A stretch of 64,000 nt of DNA from Acidobacteriota bacterium (GTDB lineage Bacteria > Acidobacteriota > Blastocatellia > Pyrinomonadales > Pyrinomonadaceae): NCBI GenBank assembly GCA_025463135.1, contig JAOAPY010000048.1:1-64000 (forward strand). Direction: 5' to 3'. The notes below the pieces were generated by a model. The model ran no database searches and was not told the DNA's origin. It saw only the letters and a list, made by a program, of their open reading frames with translations. The first letter of the stretch is position 1. Each line of letters begins with the position of its first letter. The translations under genes and the position numbers were made by a program. This document shows, piece by piece, positions 1 to 10,749 of the stretch.

Positions 1-8
1 CCCCAAAA

Positions 9-123
9 GTGTTCACCTTCCCGTGAAATAGGTGTTCACCTTCCCGTGAAACAGGTGTTCATCATCGCGTGAAACAGGTGTTCAGCTTCCCGTGAAATGG
101 GTGTTCAACTTGGTGTGAAATAC
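9..123. repeat. Five tandem 23-bp repeat units
   Basis: Units start at 9, 32, 55, 78 and 101, an exact 23-bp period. The first two are nearly identical and the last is the most diverged. Each unit carries a short dyad, TTCAC then six bases then GTGAA. Tandem dyad-containing repeats of this general look occur at the ends of IS21-family elements, so this may be the end of an insertion sequence whose body lies outside the window. No transposase gene is visible, so that identity is only a suggestion. An operator array is the alternative. Confidence 0.75.
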
Positions 124-127
124 GCAC

Positions 128-5445: not shown

Positions 5446-8178
5446 ATGCCTCTTCACCTAACAAAACAATTACAGCGGGCGATTCAAAATGATCCGTCAG
5501 CGTGCGTGCTCTTCGTGGGAGCGGGACTATCAGCGTCTGGCGTTAGACAAAGTGGAGCGGGTCTTCCTACTTGGCACACTTTAGTGCAACACATGATCGA
5601 CGACCTTCGCGACTCAGAAAATGGCGATTCTGCGACCTTGTCAAAACTTGAAGACTCACTAAAAGAAGGGCGCTATCTTGAGGTAGCTCAAACCTTCAAA
5701 CAACAAACCCGTCCCGATCAATTCGTTGCATTCCTTAAGGCCGAACTTGATCGCCCGGACTTGTGTTCGTCAACCTTGCATGAAGTCATCCTCAAGACCG
5801 CGTTTCGCGGCATAATTACGACGAACTTCGACATGATGTTCGAACATCAAAGTAACCGATTACAACCTCTGGTCTATCCGCAATTCTTAGGTGATATTGA
5901 CTCCTTCAGGCGAGCCGGTTTCTTTGCGAAGATACATGGTTGTATCCGCACCACTGGAAACCCGGCAGAAAACTTAGTTCTGACCGAAGAGAGTTATTCC
6001 TTACTTCGGGCTAATCCCAAGTACAAGACGATTCTGCACAGTCTGTTTGTGATGCACCCAGTGTTAACGGTCGGATTCTCTTTGAGAGATCCTGATTTCA
6101 ATGGAATCCTCGCGGATCTTCGTGAAGCTCTTGGTGAAAGTACTCCTACCGTCTATTCGTTAATGTATCGACCAGACGAAGCGGCGAGAGATGAATGGCG
6201 CAAGATGGGAGTAGAAATCATCCCTTATTCGGACCACGATGAATTGCTCCCTTTCTTCCACCAACTCCTGGCTCTCACCGAGTCGAAGCGCGGGACACCG
6301 CAGACACCGCCGCCAACCCAGGAGTCGAAAATAAATTACGAGGACCTTCTTGAGCGTTGGGCCGAAGCGCAGAAGATAGAAGAGGTATTCGAATTAGTCG
6401 ACGAGCAAATACGAGCATTGCCGAACAACACTCAGAAGGAGTCTTTTCTTTTTGAACTCCTAGCATTGATGGATCGGGAAGATCAAATCTGCTTAGCACC
6501 ACATTTGACTGCCCTGCTAAATGAGGAAACAAGCAGAGCGTTGCAGTCACTGTTCAAAGGAGCCTGCAAAGGGAACAAGTGGGAAGCTAAGACTCGACTG
6601 GCGAGTTTGAAACCTCATGCGCTGCACCTAGGTGTGCATAAGTGGGTGACAACTAGCTGGGAGAATATCGTTTCACAATCTTGGCGTGGTGAGCTGGAGG
6701 CGCTCTTCGGTTGGCTACTTAACCCGGAATGGACGCAACACGGCGTCGATCTGTGGAACACATTTCTATCCTTGTTCAACCACATTATGTCGGCCCATCG
6801 CCGAAACTCTCTGTCGGATCTTTACGAGGCTTGCGAGCACCTTGAGGGCGCGCGAGACAAAATTGAGAAGACCGTGCTTGCGCCTACATTCGTGCGAGAA
6901 GATGACTCCCAAAGCGGCCTGCAGCGCCGATGGTACAAGAGTTGGGATGAGGAAGTAGTAAGGCATGTGGATGAGGGACGGTTTCAAAGAATCCTTAATG
7001 AAGCCAAGCCCAACGCAAATTACCATGACCTCGTAGAACTCGGTCAAAGCCAAGGATACTGGCGAACCGTAGTGAAAAGGCTCTTGACCGAATACGTACA
7101 CCGTACCCATCTGACGCTTCACAGCTTTTCTGGCGAGTTTAATCCAGCAAAGGCACAGGAACTCCTCGATGCTCTTGGTTCGGTCATAGATCCACAAAGT
7201 CAGATCGAGGTTCTGTGGGAGATTAGCCATTGGCCTGAGGAGATGCGGGGCCTGGGCTCCCGTGGCGAAGATTTCCAAAGTCTTAGAGAAGGTCTCTTCC
7301 TGCCACTGTGGTGGAGATATTCGAGTGAAACGAGAATAAAGTATCTCGAAGGTGGCGCTAAGCGACGCATGATGGATTTGATGCCAGATGTCGGGCAGGA
7401 GTTCTTGCTCAACAACATGATGGGCCTCCGTTATGACCCCGATCACGATTTTAGGGAAGCATTTCTTGCCTCGTCGGATGCCTACAGGTCGCACCACCGG
7501 GAAGAGGCATACGATCCAAATTTCCTTATGAGGGTATGGGCCGATCGTGAACTTGGCTATGACCTTAGCAAGGATACTCCACCGGAGTTAGTAAGAAGAA
7601 TTGCGACAAATAGATCGGCGTCGGAGGATTTCGAGCAAGAGGTCTGGTGGGAAGAGGCTCAGAGGATGGCTGATTCCGTATTGAGAGAGGGGCAACTTAG
7701 ACCGTATGTGTCTAGTGAACACAACAACTATGTCGTCGACAATCTTCTTGGTGCATACTTCCCAGATAGATCACGAGTCGTTCTCTACGACACAATGATC
7801 GAACTCGCCGCGCAAGACCTCAATGTGGAATGCCAGGCCTTGAGTACAATCGTTTACATGCACGAAACCGTCCATGCGTTCTCGCACTTGGGAAAGGATC
7901 GCGATGGCTTTTCGTGGATCGACTTCAGCATGCCGGCTCCTAGACAGCCAGAGCTTAGCCTTAGCATTGCCCACGAATCCATTGCGCAGTACTACACTTT
8001 CAAGCTGATTGAATATCTAAAGGATGAACGTTTAGAGCGCGCCTTCACGGTTCTCGAAGAACACAGTCAGCCTGCCTATCGGGCTTGGCGCGCTACAGCG
8101 GACTATAGCCTTGAGCAAATGAGGGAGTTACTCATCACCTTGCGAAGGAGAGGCACAGACTGGCCCCCCAAGCTTTAG
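5446..8178 (+). CDS. SIR2-domain protein with C-terminal HExxH metallopeptidase-like domain
   Basis: The 910-residue product has an N-terminal SIR2 domain: GAGLS at 25-29, TTNFD at 125-129, catalytic-type His at H164 (KIHGC), and VGFSLRDPDF near 205. SIR2 domains in defence proteins usually hydrolyse NAD+, starving the infected cell. Residues from about 290 to 760 are mostly helical and unrecognised. The C-terminus has HETVH (806-810) in the context MHETVHAFSHLG, and 34 residues later HESIAQYYT with E844. This is the spacing and context expected of a gluzincin-like zinc peptidase with His, His and Glu ligands. The fusion suggests that proteolysis controls the NADase, or that the protein cleaves a partner. 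A cyclase-like gene follows after 66 bp on the same strand. No strong ribosome binding site precedes the ATG. Confidence 0.85.
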   Translation: MPLHLTKQLQRAIQNDPSACVLFVGAGLSASGVRQSGAGLPTWHTLVQHMIDDLRDSENGDSATLSKLEDSLKEGRYLEVAQTFKQQTRPDQFVAFLKAELDRPDLCSSTLHEVILKTAFRGIITTNFDMMFEHQSNRLQPLVYPQFLGDIDSFRRAGFFAKIHGCIRTTGNPAENLVLTEESYSLLRANPKYKTILHSLFVMHPVLTVGFSLRDPDFNGILADLREALGESTPTVYSLMYRPDEAARDEWRKMGVEIIPYSDHDELLPFFHQLLALTESKRGTPQTPPPTQESKINYEDLLERWAEAQKIEEVFELVDEQIRALPNNTQKESFLFELLALMDREDQICLAPHLTALLNEETSRALQSLFKGACKGNKWEAKTRLASLKPHALHLGVHKWVTTSWENIVSQSWRGELEALFGWLLNPEWTQHGVDLWNTFLSLFNHIMSAHRRNSLSDLYEACEHLEGARDKIEKTVLAPTFVREDDSQSGLQRRWYKSWDEEVVRHVDEGRFQRILNEAKPNANYHDLVELGQSQGYWRTVVKRLLTEYVHRTHLTLHSFSGEFNPAKAQELLDALGSVIDPQSQIEVLWEISHWPEEMRGLGSRGEDFQSLREGLFLPLWWRYSSETRIKYLEGGAKRRMMDLMPDVGQEFLLNNMMGLRYDPDHDFREAFLASSDAYRSHHREEAYDPNFLMRVWADRELGYDLSKDTPPELVRRIATNRSASEDFEQEVWWEEAQRMADSVLREGQLRPYVSSEHNNYVVDNLLGAYFPDRSRVVLYDTMIELAAQDLNVECQALSTIVYMHETVHAFSHLGKDRDGFSWIDFSMPAPRQPELSLSIAHESIAQYYTFKLIEYLKDERLERAFTVLEEHSQPAYRAWRATADYSLEQMRELLITLRRRGTDWPPKL

Positions 8179-8244
8179 AGGAAACCGGAAGTTGACCGCG
8201 AGCGGACGAAGCTAGCTCCAAATGGATGAAGGCGCCCGACTCTA

Positions 8245-10749
8245 ATGTCTGGTTCCAGCGTCTACGCGGCGGATACTGAAAGGACCGCGCCGAGTATGGT
8301 CGATGATAATAAGGCGCAAAGAATTTCAAACGACGGTGTCTTCGAACGGTCCGTCCTTGAACTAATTAACCAGGGATTGCACACTCGCCGCGGCCTGACG
8401 GCCGAGGAATATATCGCGCTTTGCAAGAAAGCCTGGGATGCTTGCCAAGCCTCCTCGGACTTCCCCTTCAAGATTCTGATCGATCCACTTCAATCCGCAG
8501 AGAATGCCATCGCGAATAGTAACCAGGACTATATCCACTCCCGTACAGCTAAGGCCATCCGAACCATACCTTTTGACACAACAGAAGTTCGATGTGATGC
8601 CATCGGACTTGTCACACCGGATCTCTCAAGAGAGAGAGAAGGCGAGAGCGAGGAAGACAGCCCGGTAACTACCGAAGAACCCGACGTGCGCGAACGCCGG
8701 AGGTACATTCTGGGTGTGTTTGACGTTCTTGGGTTTTCTGCGCTGCTCGAATCAATAGGTCTCAAGGATCTCACCGCGCTCTACGACAAGCTAATTGCCG
8801 ATGCTGTAACGAAAGATGCTATGCGAACCTTCGGTGCCATTCGACTAAACGACAAAGAAGTCGCAGGCACGCTTTTCGCATTACCGGTGCGGCACACTCA
8901 CTTCAGTGACACAATCATCCTTTGGGTCCCACTAATCCAGCACTTCATTGCGCCATTTATCGCCCGCTGTGCAGACTTGATCGGTGATGCGTTGAAGCTT
9001 GGCCTACCCCTTAGAGGTGCGCTCGCCAGCGGGATGGCGGTTTTACACTCGCGAAGCGGTACTTTTATCGGCGAGCCAATCGTTGAAGCCGCGCGGTTGG
9101 AACAGGCTCAGAATTGGCTTGGTGTATCGCTCGGATTATCCATGCTAGCGTCGGACATTACTCGAGAATACGATCCTAATCTCATCCTTCCTTACGAGGC
9201 ACCGACTAAGCCAAACAAGAAGCATCTTTTGTCAGGGTTGGCGCTAGATTGGCCTCGGAGATTTCTCTCTCGACACGGCGGCGATCCTCAGGAACTCTTG
9301 CAAGCGCTCAATAAGTCGCCAGCTCATCGCCGCTACTATGAAAACGCGACCAAGTTTGTTGAATTCTCTCGTGGTCCGATTATTCGACGAGAGGGAATGC
9401 AACCACTTCACCTAACCGAACTTGCGGCGGCTGCCGTTGAGGCGCGAACTGGAGACTCGCATTTAACTGAGGAGCAAAAATCAGAACTATATGATCTCCA
9501 GCAAGTTGGTTCTATCGGGCCATCAGTGGCTGGATTCCTGGATGCAATCGCCCAGGGTGATGATCCGCAAGTTCCCGCCGACTTGCCATCTGGACTCCGA
9601 CGCTACCTGAAGGAGCTTTCGCTCGCATCCAAAGGTTCGGCTAAGTACTTCAAGCTTAGCGAAATCGTAATTAAGGCGCTCAATGCCCGCTTTAGAGGCA
9701 ATGAACTGGACAACGACACGCTTGAGGTTTTAGACGATCTTGAGAAATTTGGTCGTCGAGGTTCGCTGGCCGCAAAATTCATTCGTGAACTCGCAGCCGG
9801 TGATGCGGTAGTCGTCCCGAAAGGTCTGCAACCAGAATGGCGCAGATTCTTGCGCCAAGCCTTAGACTGGGCGACTGGGAAAGTACCGAGCGGTCCGTTG
9901 CAACACTTGGCTAATGAGTGCCTCCAAGTTCGATTTCTCGGCGGAGCGCTGAGCCAACATGACGAGACGATGCTTAGCTTGTTGGAGGTGAGCGGTCAAC
10001 CTTGGTTGTTGGTGGCTACTTTTCTTTGGGACGTTGCGGATGCGAGTAAGACTCCTATCATTCCGAGCGGTCTTTCTCGCAGCATTGAGCAGCAGTTAAT
10101 AAGGATTCGTCAGGCCGCATCCCTTGCAAAGGTGCAGTCGCCTCGGATTATAGAGTTGATGAGCATCGGCATCGGCGACCCATGCACCCGGATCGATCTT
10201 TTCGCGTTAGCGCACCACCTTGCCAAACTCAGAGGACAAGTTGAAGTGATACCACCGGAGTTGGAGGCGTTCATTGCTAGATTTGAGGCTGCCGCTCCGG
10301 AGAGAGCGACTGCCGGTCAATACCTTCGAGCCTTGACCACCGGTTGTCCAACGACGGATATGCCGTCCCCGCTTCCAGCAGCGATAGAGATGCTCGTCTC
10401 CCAACTTCGTGCGCTCGCAAACGGTGAGCCGCTACCACTCACTCCACAATACGTTGGTTGGGGAGCGATCCGATCACGACATGGAGGAGCCGAGATCGGT
10501 GACTGTTTGCGATTCTCACTGCAAGCAATGTTAAATTCAAGCACCGAACTCAGGTCTTTAGCCCAATACTTCTGTAATCTCGCGAACGGCGGACCCGCTG
10601 CGCCGATGCCTAAATTTTCAACGCCGCAGTTAATTGAAGTCGCAGAAGAAATGAGATGTCTTGCAGATCGTGAGGTTGGCGGCTTTCGGCTTGGCGTAAC
10701 TCAGGCAAGTCCCCCGCAGCCCCAAGCCGAGGATAACGAAGGGGCTTAG
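8245..10749 (+). CDS. Large protein with central class III cyclase-like domain
   Basis: The 834-residue product has a charged N-terminal region (1-150), then a domain resembling class III adenylate/guanylate cyclases (about 152-335): FDVLGFS with D160, FSDT with D222 (the two expected metal-binding Asp), RGALASG at 257-263 and IGEPIVEAARLE with R284. The ribose-contacting Asn usual three residues before that Arg is Glu (E281), so nucleotide specificity or activity may be altered. The remaining 500 residues are mainly helical with no motif I recognise. It lies 66 bp after the SIR2-HExxH gene, probably in one operon. Pycsar cyclases are also class III-related, so a signalling role in defence is plausible but unproven. 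An ATG at 8296 is a possible alternative start. The cyclase part is shared with the broken gene at 128-948. Confidence 0.75.
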   Translation: MSGSSVYAADTERTAPSMVDDNKAQRISNDGVFERSVLELINQGLHTRRGLTAEEYIALCKKAWDACQASSDFPFKILIDPLQSAENAIANSNQDYIHSRTAKAIRTIPFDTTEVRCDAIGLVTPDLSREREGESEEDSPVTTEEPDVRERRRYILGVFDVLGFSALLESIGLKDLTALYDKLIADAVTKDAMRTFGAIRLNDKEVAGTLFALPVRHTHFSDTIILWVPLIQHFIAPFIARCADLIGDALKLGLPLRGALASGMAVLHSRSGTFIGEPIVEAARLEQAQNWLGVSLGLSMLASDITREYDPNLILPYEAPTKPNKKHLLSGLALDWPRRFLSRHGGDPQELLQALNKSPAHRRYYENATKFVEFSRGPIIRREGMQPLHLTELAAAAVEARTGDSHLTEEQKSELYDLQQVGSIGPSVAGFLDAIAQGDDPQVPADLPSGLRRYLKELSLASKGSAKYFKLSEIVIKALNARFRGNELDNDTLEVLDDLEKFGRRGSLAAKFIRELAAGDAVVVPKGLQPEWRRFLRQALDWATGKVPSGPLQHLANECLQVRFLGGALSQHDETMLSLLEVSGQPWLLVATFLWDVADASKTPIIPSGLSRSIEQQLIRIRQAASLAKVQSPRIIELMSIGIGDPCTRIDLFALAHHLAKLRGQVEVIPPELEAFIARFEAAAPERATAGQYLRALTTGCPTTDMPSPLPAAIEMLVSQLRALANGEPLPLTPQYVGWGAIRSRHGGAEIGDCLRFSLQAMLNSSTELRSLAQYFCNLANGGPAAPMPKFSTPQLIEVAEEMRCLADREVGGFRLGVTQASPPQPQAEDNEGA

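Follow-up and report, generated by a model that had tools for sequence, protein, structure and literature searches.

The SIR2-zincin gene and its setting

The DNA analysed here, called the window, comprises positions 1 to 64,000 of the forward strand of contig JAOAPY010000048.1 (assembly GCA_025463135.1), from an Acidobacteriota bacterium. On its + strand lies a gene for a protein of 910 amino acids, P0001 (5446..8178), which has four full-length orthologues (41-55% identical) and is made up of three parts: a SIR2 domain (about residues 1-285, 5446..6300), a middle part that is predicted to form an alpha-helical solenoid and is the least conserved of the three (about residues 286-690, 6301..7515), and a C-terminal domain with an invariant HExxH and Glu that is predicted to be a gluzincin-like zincin (residues 697-910, 7534..8175). 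It is followed on the same strand, after a gap of 66 bp, by a cyclase-like gene, P0002 (8245..10749, + strand, 834 residues). An earlier note on this DNA, made from the letters and their open reading frames, gave coordinates and motif positions for both genes that were all correct on re-check.

At the level of sequence there is no doubt about the SIR2 domain. Pfam SIR2_2 matches residues 122-259 (E 4.1e-25), a PDB profile search with the domain returned DSR2 (2e-12), KomC and ThsA, and all three motifs of the superfamily are present: GAG(L)S as GAGLS from residue 25 (5518-5532), TTN(F)D as TTNFD with N127 (codon 5824-5826), and IHG with H164 (codon 5935-5937). All five orthologues (P0001 included) keep the residues of GAG(L)S as well as N127, D129 and H164 unchanged, which bears out the complete NADase-type motif set that had been read from the letters. 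The remaining 625 residues have no Pfam match, and NCBIfam and PADLOC gave only partial matches to P0001, all in the SIR2 part, so that the C-terminal domain is covered by no model of these three collections. In an AlphaFold2 model of residues 286-910 an alpha-helical solenoid precedes the C-terminal domain, with solenoid pLDDT values of about 80-95 over much of residues 296-485 and lower values beyond. Foldseek with this long model matched generic HEAT/ARM-type helical-repeat proteins only, and kinship with them was not accepted because the matches are generic.

The surroundings described in the earlier note as a defence neighbourhood hold up, as P0001 has an ApeA family gene (Pfam E 2.5e-47) and a gene for a type IIG-like enzyme among its neighbours in the window. 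In window 1-125, at the end of the contig, a sequence of the type GTGAACACCTATTTCACGGGAAG, about 24 bases long, recurs several times with hardly any change. At the two verrucomicrobial orthologue loci (L044 and L045) there are same-strand genes for a D12 methyltransferase and a NotI- or SacI-like enzyme, together with pieces of type I restriction genes. The fragment at L044 (424-1134) is an hsdM gene without its 3' part that ends 17 bp upstream of the SIR2-zincin gene, and the one at L045 (4559-6601) is an hsdR gene without its 5' part that comes directly after it; these broken genes possibly mark an insertion hot spot or an assembly junction. At L046 the contig ends just past the SIR2-zincin gene, and at L043 no classical restriction system adjoins it.

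The C-terminal domain and its relatives

The putative zinc site consists of HETVH at residues 806-810 (codons 7861-7875) and E844 (codon 7975-7977) within HESIAQ, which starts at residue 843. The motif alone is weak evidence, since a lone HExxH occurs in about 10% of shuffled P0001 sequences. However, a chance origin is ruled out by the conservation of the motif and the Glu across relatives: none of the five orthologues and none of the eight relatives of the domain, down to about 30% identity, has lost H806, E807, H810 or E844. The AlphaFold2 model of residues 697-910, built from an alignment of seven sequences, has a pTM of 0.79 and places the helix with HExxH next to the one that bears the Glu, both with pLDDT of about 95. 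Foldseek with this model gave nothing significant (best E 0.53), and a PDB profile search with the zincin sequence gave a weak match to the putative hydrolase 3cmn (E 0.24). In VIA-align, by contrast, the best rows were nearly all zincins, led by dipeptidyl-peptidase III (DPP III, M49; Z 8.8, rmsd 3.9 A over 156 residues) and followed by 3cmn (Z 8.3), YbeY (6.4), the Zn-dependent peptidase 3c37 (5.8) and ArdC (4.9), with collagenase, neprilysin and minigluzincins at Z 4.5-4.8. Among the minigluzincins are the zymogens abylysin, jannalysin and selecase (Z 4.5-4.7). The zincin reading thus comes from the VIA-align scores and the ligand residues and not from Foldseek, and the site is judged real because its ligands are conserved and the predicted fold is zincin-like. 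The domain most likely has a zincin fold of the gluzincin-like kind, as the model indicates, and it would bind zinc and cleave protein. The gluzincin-like HETVH...HESIAQ pattern that had been noticed in the SIR2 chain is therefore genuine and conserved.

A profile of the C-terminal domain was scanned over about 85,000 species genomes, in a pattern-based scan that can miss members, and it found seven loci, four with full-length orthologues of P0001 and three with stand-alone copies of the domain. The orthologues are 55, 46, 45 and 41% identical to P0001, all have the order SIR2, middle, HExxH, and they come from a small phylum with only 7 genomes in the searched set (L043), from Verrucomicrobia (L044 and L045) and from Bryobacterales (L046), so that the family spans at least three phyla. 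Invariant columns among the five proteins make up 29% and 33% of the two ends and 13% of the middle. A sample of 396 genomes from the phylum of P0001 gave fragment matches only (the SIR2 parts of other proteins and one stand-alone C-terminal domain), and surveys of 289 verrucomicrobial, 296 Bacteroidetes and 7 small-phylum genomes gave no copies beyond those already known; from these surveys the family appears to be rare and scattered. The window copy resembles the small-phylum and verrucomicrobial copies (55, 46 and 45%) more than the one from Bryobacterales (41%), which shares its phylum, and this suggests horizontal transfer of the gene. Scans of viral contigs for the zincin domain and for full-length P0001 found no relatives, and a tblastn search of phages with the C-terminal domain had no match. 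Matches in three further genomes (G037, G258 and G274) were set aside; the one inspected (G037, L040) was a false positive, a glutamate-synthase-like protein.

The zincin domain also stands alone, without SIR2, in four other genomes: in Acidobacteria (L047, on the same contig as G307), in Bacteroidetes (L048 and L049, with an identical protein) and on the Salinibacter plasmid pSR76, the single match of a plasmid tblastn search with the domain. The stand-alone genes at L030 (7563-8561), L048 (355-1290) and L049 (4896-5831) lie beside GmrSD and a PLD-SNF2 helicase, as in Salinibacter, or beside a RecD-like helicase gene, 9 bp downstream of it in Bacteroidetes. Stand-alone zincins are possibly an uncatalogued, defence-associated family. 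The SIR2 domain likewise occurs with another partner, in a gene (L035 of genome G064, 280-2137, - strand) known from a single metagenome contig that is frameshifted between two frames and partly masked. Its SIR2 domain is 52% identical to P0001 over residues 16-229, and the end of that domain and a set of ankyrin-type repeats follow in the shifted frame, in place of the solenoid and zincin. An effector that takes different C-termini and a zincin that takes different partners are what effector-sensor proteins would be expected to show, and the ankyrin swap fits a C-terminal part of P0001 that is an exchangeable sensor.

Proposed mechanism and alternatives

SIR2 NADases are an established bacterial route to abort infection, and the activating cue is known for few of them. 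On balance, we favour the view that P0001 works alone as an abortive-infection protein of the DSR type, in which a SIR2 NADase is the effector, a solenoid follows, and a zincin is the sensor or trigger; its NADase activity, the direction of control and its anti-phage role are presumptive parts of this view. The N-terminal SIR2 domain would be a latent NADase that is held in check, and the helical solenoid would connect it to the predicted gluzincin-fold domain, which would bind zinc and act as the recognition or trigger module. The cue would probably be a phage protein that is bound or cleaved; once it is met, the chain would rearrange, SIR2 would destroy NAD+, and with the loss of NAD+ the infected cell would no longer support the phage. 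Triggering by cleavage is favoured over triggering by binding because the catalytic Glu807 is retained. A more specific version, in which the cue, be it a phage protein or P0001 itself, is cut by the gluzincin, and this proteolysis turns on the destruction of NAD+ by SIR2 within a single chain, is put forward as a tentative suggestion. If the proposal is true, a conserved predicted zincin in the sensor position would tie proteolysis to the depletion of NAD+ in a single chain. Since the same zincin also stands by itself next to restriction or helicase genes, it may well be a defence-associated domain that has not been catalogued.

The zincin could, on the other hand, be a second effector or a regulator and not a sensor. 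In a zymogen-like arrangement, an active gluzincin would cut its own or a partner chain on infection and so free or assemble the SIR2 NADase. The full HExxH and Glu set is invariant while the middle region drifts, and minigluzincin zymogens are among the fold matches, as this arrangement would have it. However, the stretch that links SIR2 to the zincin is the least conserved and shows no evident conserved cut site. Zincins also occur without SIR2, so that the domain must have a general role other than cutting a SIR2 chain of its own; overall this arrangement is rather unlikely. Still less probable is that the two ends are separate effectors, with SIR2 depleting NAD+ and the zincin cleaving a phage or host protein on its own account. 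Both active sites are invariant, and the occurrence of zincins without SIR2 near restriction or helicase genes suggests that the domain can work alone, but the analogy with DSR2 places a sensor at the C-terminus.

The earlier note had proposed a two-gene system instead, in which P0001 is switched on by P0002, either as the sensor of infection or as the maker of a nucleotide signal. The two genes share a strand, and the 66-bp gap between them holds no promoter- or terminator-like site above chance. P0002 has two Asp motifs, with D160 in FDVLGFS (from residue 159) and D222 in FSDT (from residue 220), and these metal Asp motifs (the D of FDVLGF and the D of FSDT) are invariant in six relatives. 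In this respect the class III cyclase-like domain that had been described stands, but other marks of such a domain are missing. Pfam Guanylate_cyc had no match at E<1 in P0002 or P0003, nor at E<5 in three relatives, whereas the same model found three true cyclases in the genome of P0002 itself. A profile-profile comparison of P0002 with these class III cyclases was weak (probability 10.7%, E 0.003), though the first Asp motif lined up in register and so did the segment RGA...G...AARLE, and a PDB profile search with the cyclase-like domain found nothing up to E 10. Where class III enzymes have their transition-state Asn, all the sequences compared have a hydrophobic or acidic residue, and the position of the transition-state Arg holds Arg in most and Ser in one. 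The label cyclase is, as judged from these sequences, a motif-level resemblance only.

The pairing of the two genes did not survive a survey either. P0002 has no homologue adjoining the SIR2-zincin gene at any of the four orthologue loci, and none was found elsewhere in the four genomes, which are metagenome-assembled, so that this absence is not absolute. Conversely, three genomes that encode P0002 relatives (G005, G074 and G121) gave no match to P0001, and the relatives, none of which adjoins a SIR2-zincin gene, are found next to DUF4145 genes (G074 and G005), alone (G121) or on a phage contig (L050). No cyclic-nucleotide-binding domain was recognised in P0001. Since conserved pairing is lacking, the finding that the earlier note itself had named as telling against its idea, the two-gene system is unsupported and very improbable, and P0002 is probably just a neighbour of P0001. 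The weakest alternative, in which the zincin has lost catalysis and serves as a binding domain stabilised by zinc, is scarcely credible: regulatory domains often have enzyme ancestry, but every relative, the stand-alone ones included, keeps Glu807, for which a zinc site with a structural role only would have no need.

Several features of the cyclase-like genes can be described in their own right. At L032 (1911-3540, - strand) and L034 (204-1769, - strand) a cyclase-like gene adjoins a DUF4145 gene, the one at L032 with a PADLOC match to PD-T7-4 (39.5 bits), and the two kinds of gene are possibly a separate pair. On the phage contig a gene set among tail genes (L050 2897-4588, + strand) encodes a cyclase-like protein of 563 residues, the first 380 of which are 33% identical to P0002. 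A second cyclase-like gene lies in the window itself about 7 kb from P0002 (307-948, - strand, continuing at about 131-319); it is 35% identical to residues 155-322 of P0002, is probably a frameshifted copy with its C-terminal part in another frame, and overlaps by 4 bp with a gene for a retropepsin-like aspartyl protease (945-1853).

Comparison with known systems

The closest parallels to the favoured reading, that of a single-gene NADase with a C-terminal trigger, are DSR2 and DSR1. DSR2 has the catalytic residues N133 and H171 and the order SIR2 effector, MID, C-terminal sensor (PMC10981675). P0001 is likewise a single large protein with an N-terminal SIR2 domain, a predicted helical middle and a C-terminal part that would have a comparable recognition role, and its N127 and H164 are in register with the DSR2 motifs in a profile alignment. 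However, the C-terminus of P0001 has a different fold, a predicted zincin, and the NCBIfam Dsr2 equivalog gives it 15.6 bits against a cut-off of 1400, over residues 22-237 only. ThsA of Thoeris and KomC have a SIR2 NADase domain of the same broad group as P0001. Thoeris combines a ThsA made of SIR2 (or TM) and SLOG with a TIR gene, ThsB; P0001 has no recognised SLOG domain, and no TIR/ThsB gene or other signalling partner is present among the adjacent genes scanned (ApeA-like, cyclase-like and IIG-like). The best PADLOC match of P0001 is to PDC-S25, a single-gene candidate (67.7 bits, SIR2 region), but the best stretch covers only residues 117-231 and the rest is unmatched. Pycsar, in which the PycC cyclase is joined by an effector that binds cyclic nucleotides, differs in that P0002 has no PADLOC match and Pfam recognises no cyclic-nucleotide-binding domain in P0001.

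An HExxH-type peptidase inside an anti-phage system has a precedent in PD-lambda-2, with its ImmA/IrrE peptidase (PMC9519451). There the peptidase is tied to a toxin-antitoxin-like unit, whereas the predicted zincin of P0001 is tied to a putative NADase. With the gluzincins (DPP III of M49, minigluzincins and M48-type enzymes, and among wider zincins ArdC) the modelled domain shares an HExxH helix followed by a Glu-bearing helix; it differs from them in having no sequence-family match and in being joined to a SIR2 NADase. The earlier remark that no named defence system joins these two activities in one chain agrees with the named-system models searched, as a SIR2-metallopeptidase fusion was found neither in the open-access papers searched nor in Pfam, NCBIfam or PADLOC (2023). 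The SIR2-zincin architecture is new among SIR2 NADase defence proteins, while the kind of system to which it would belong is already known.
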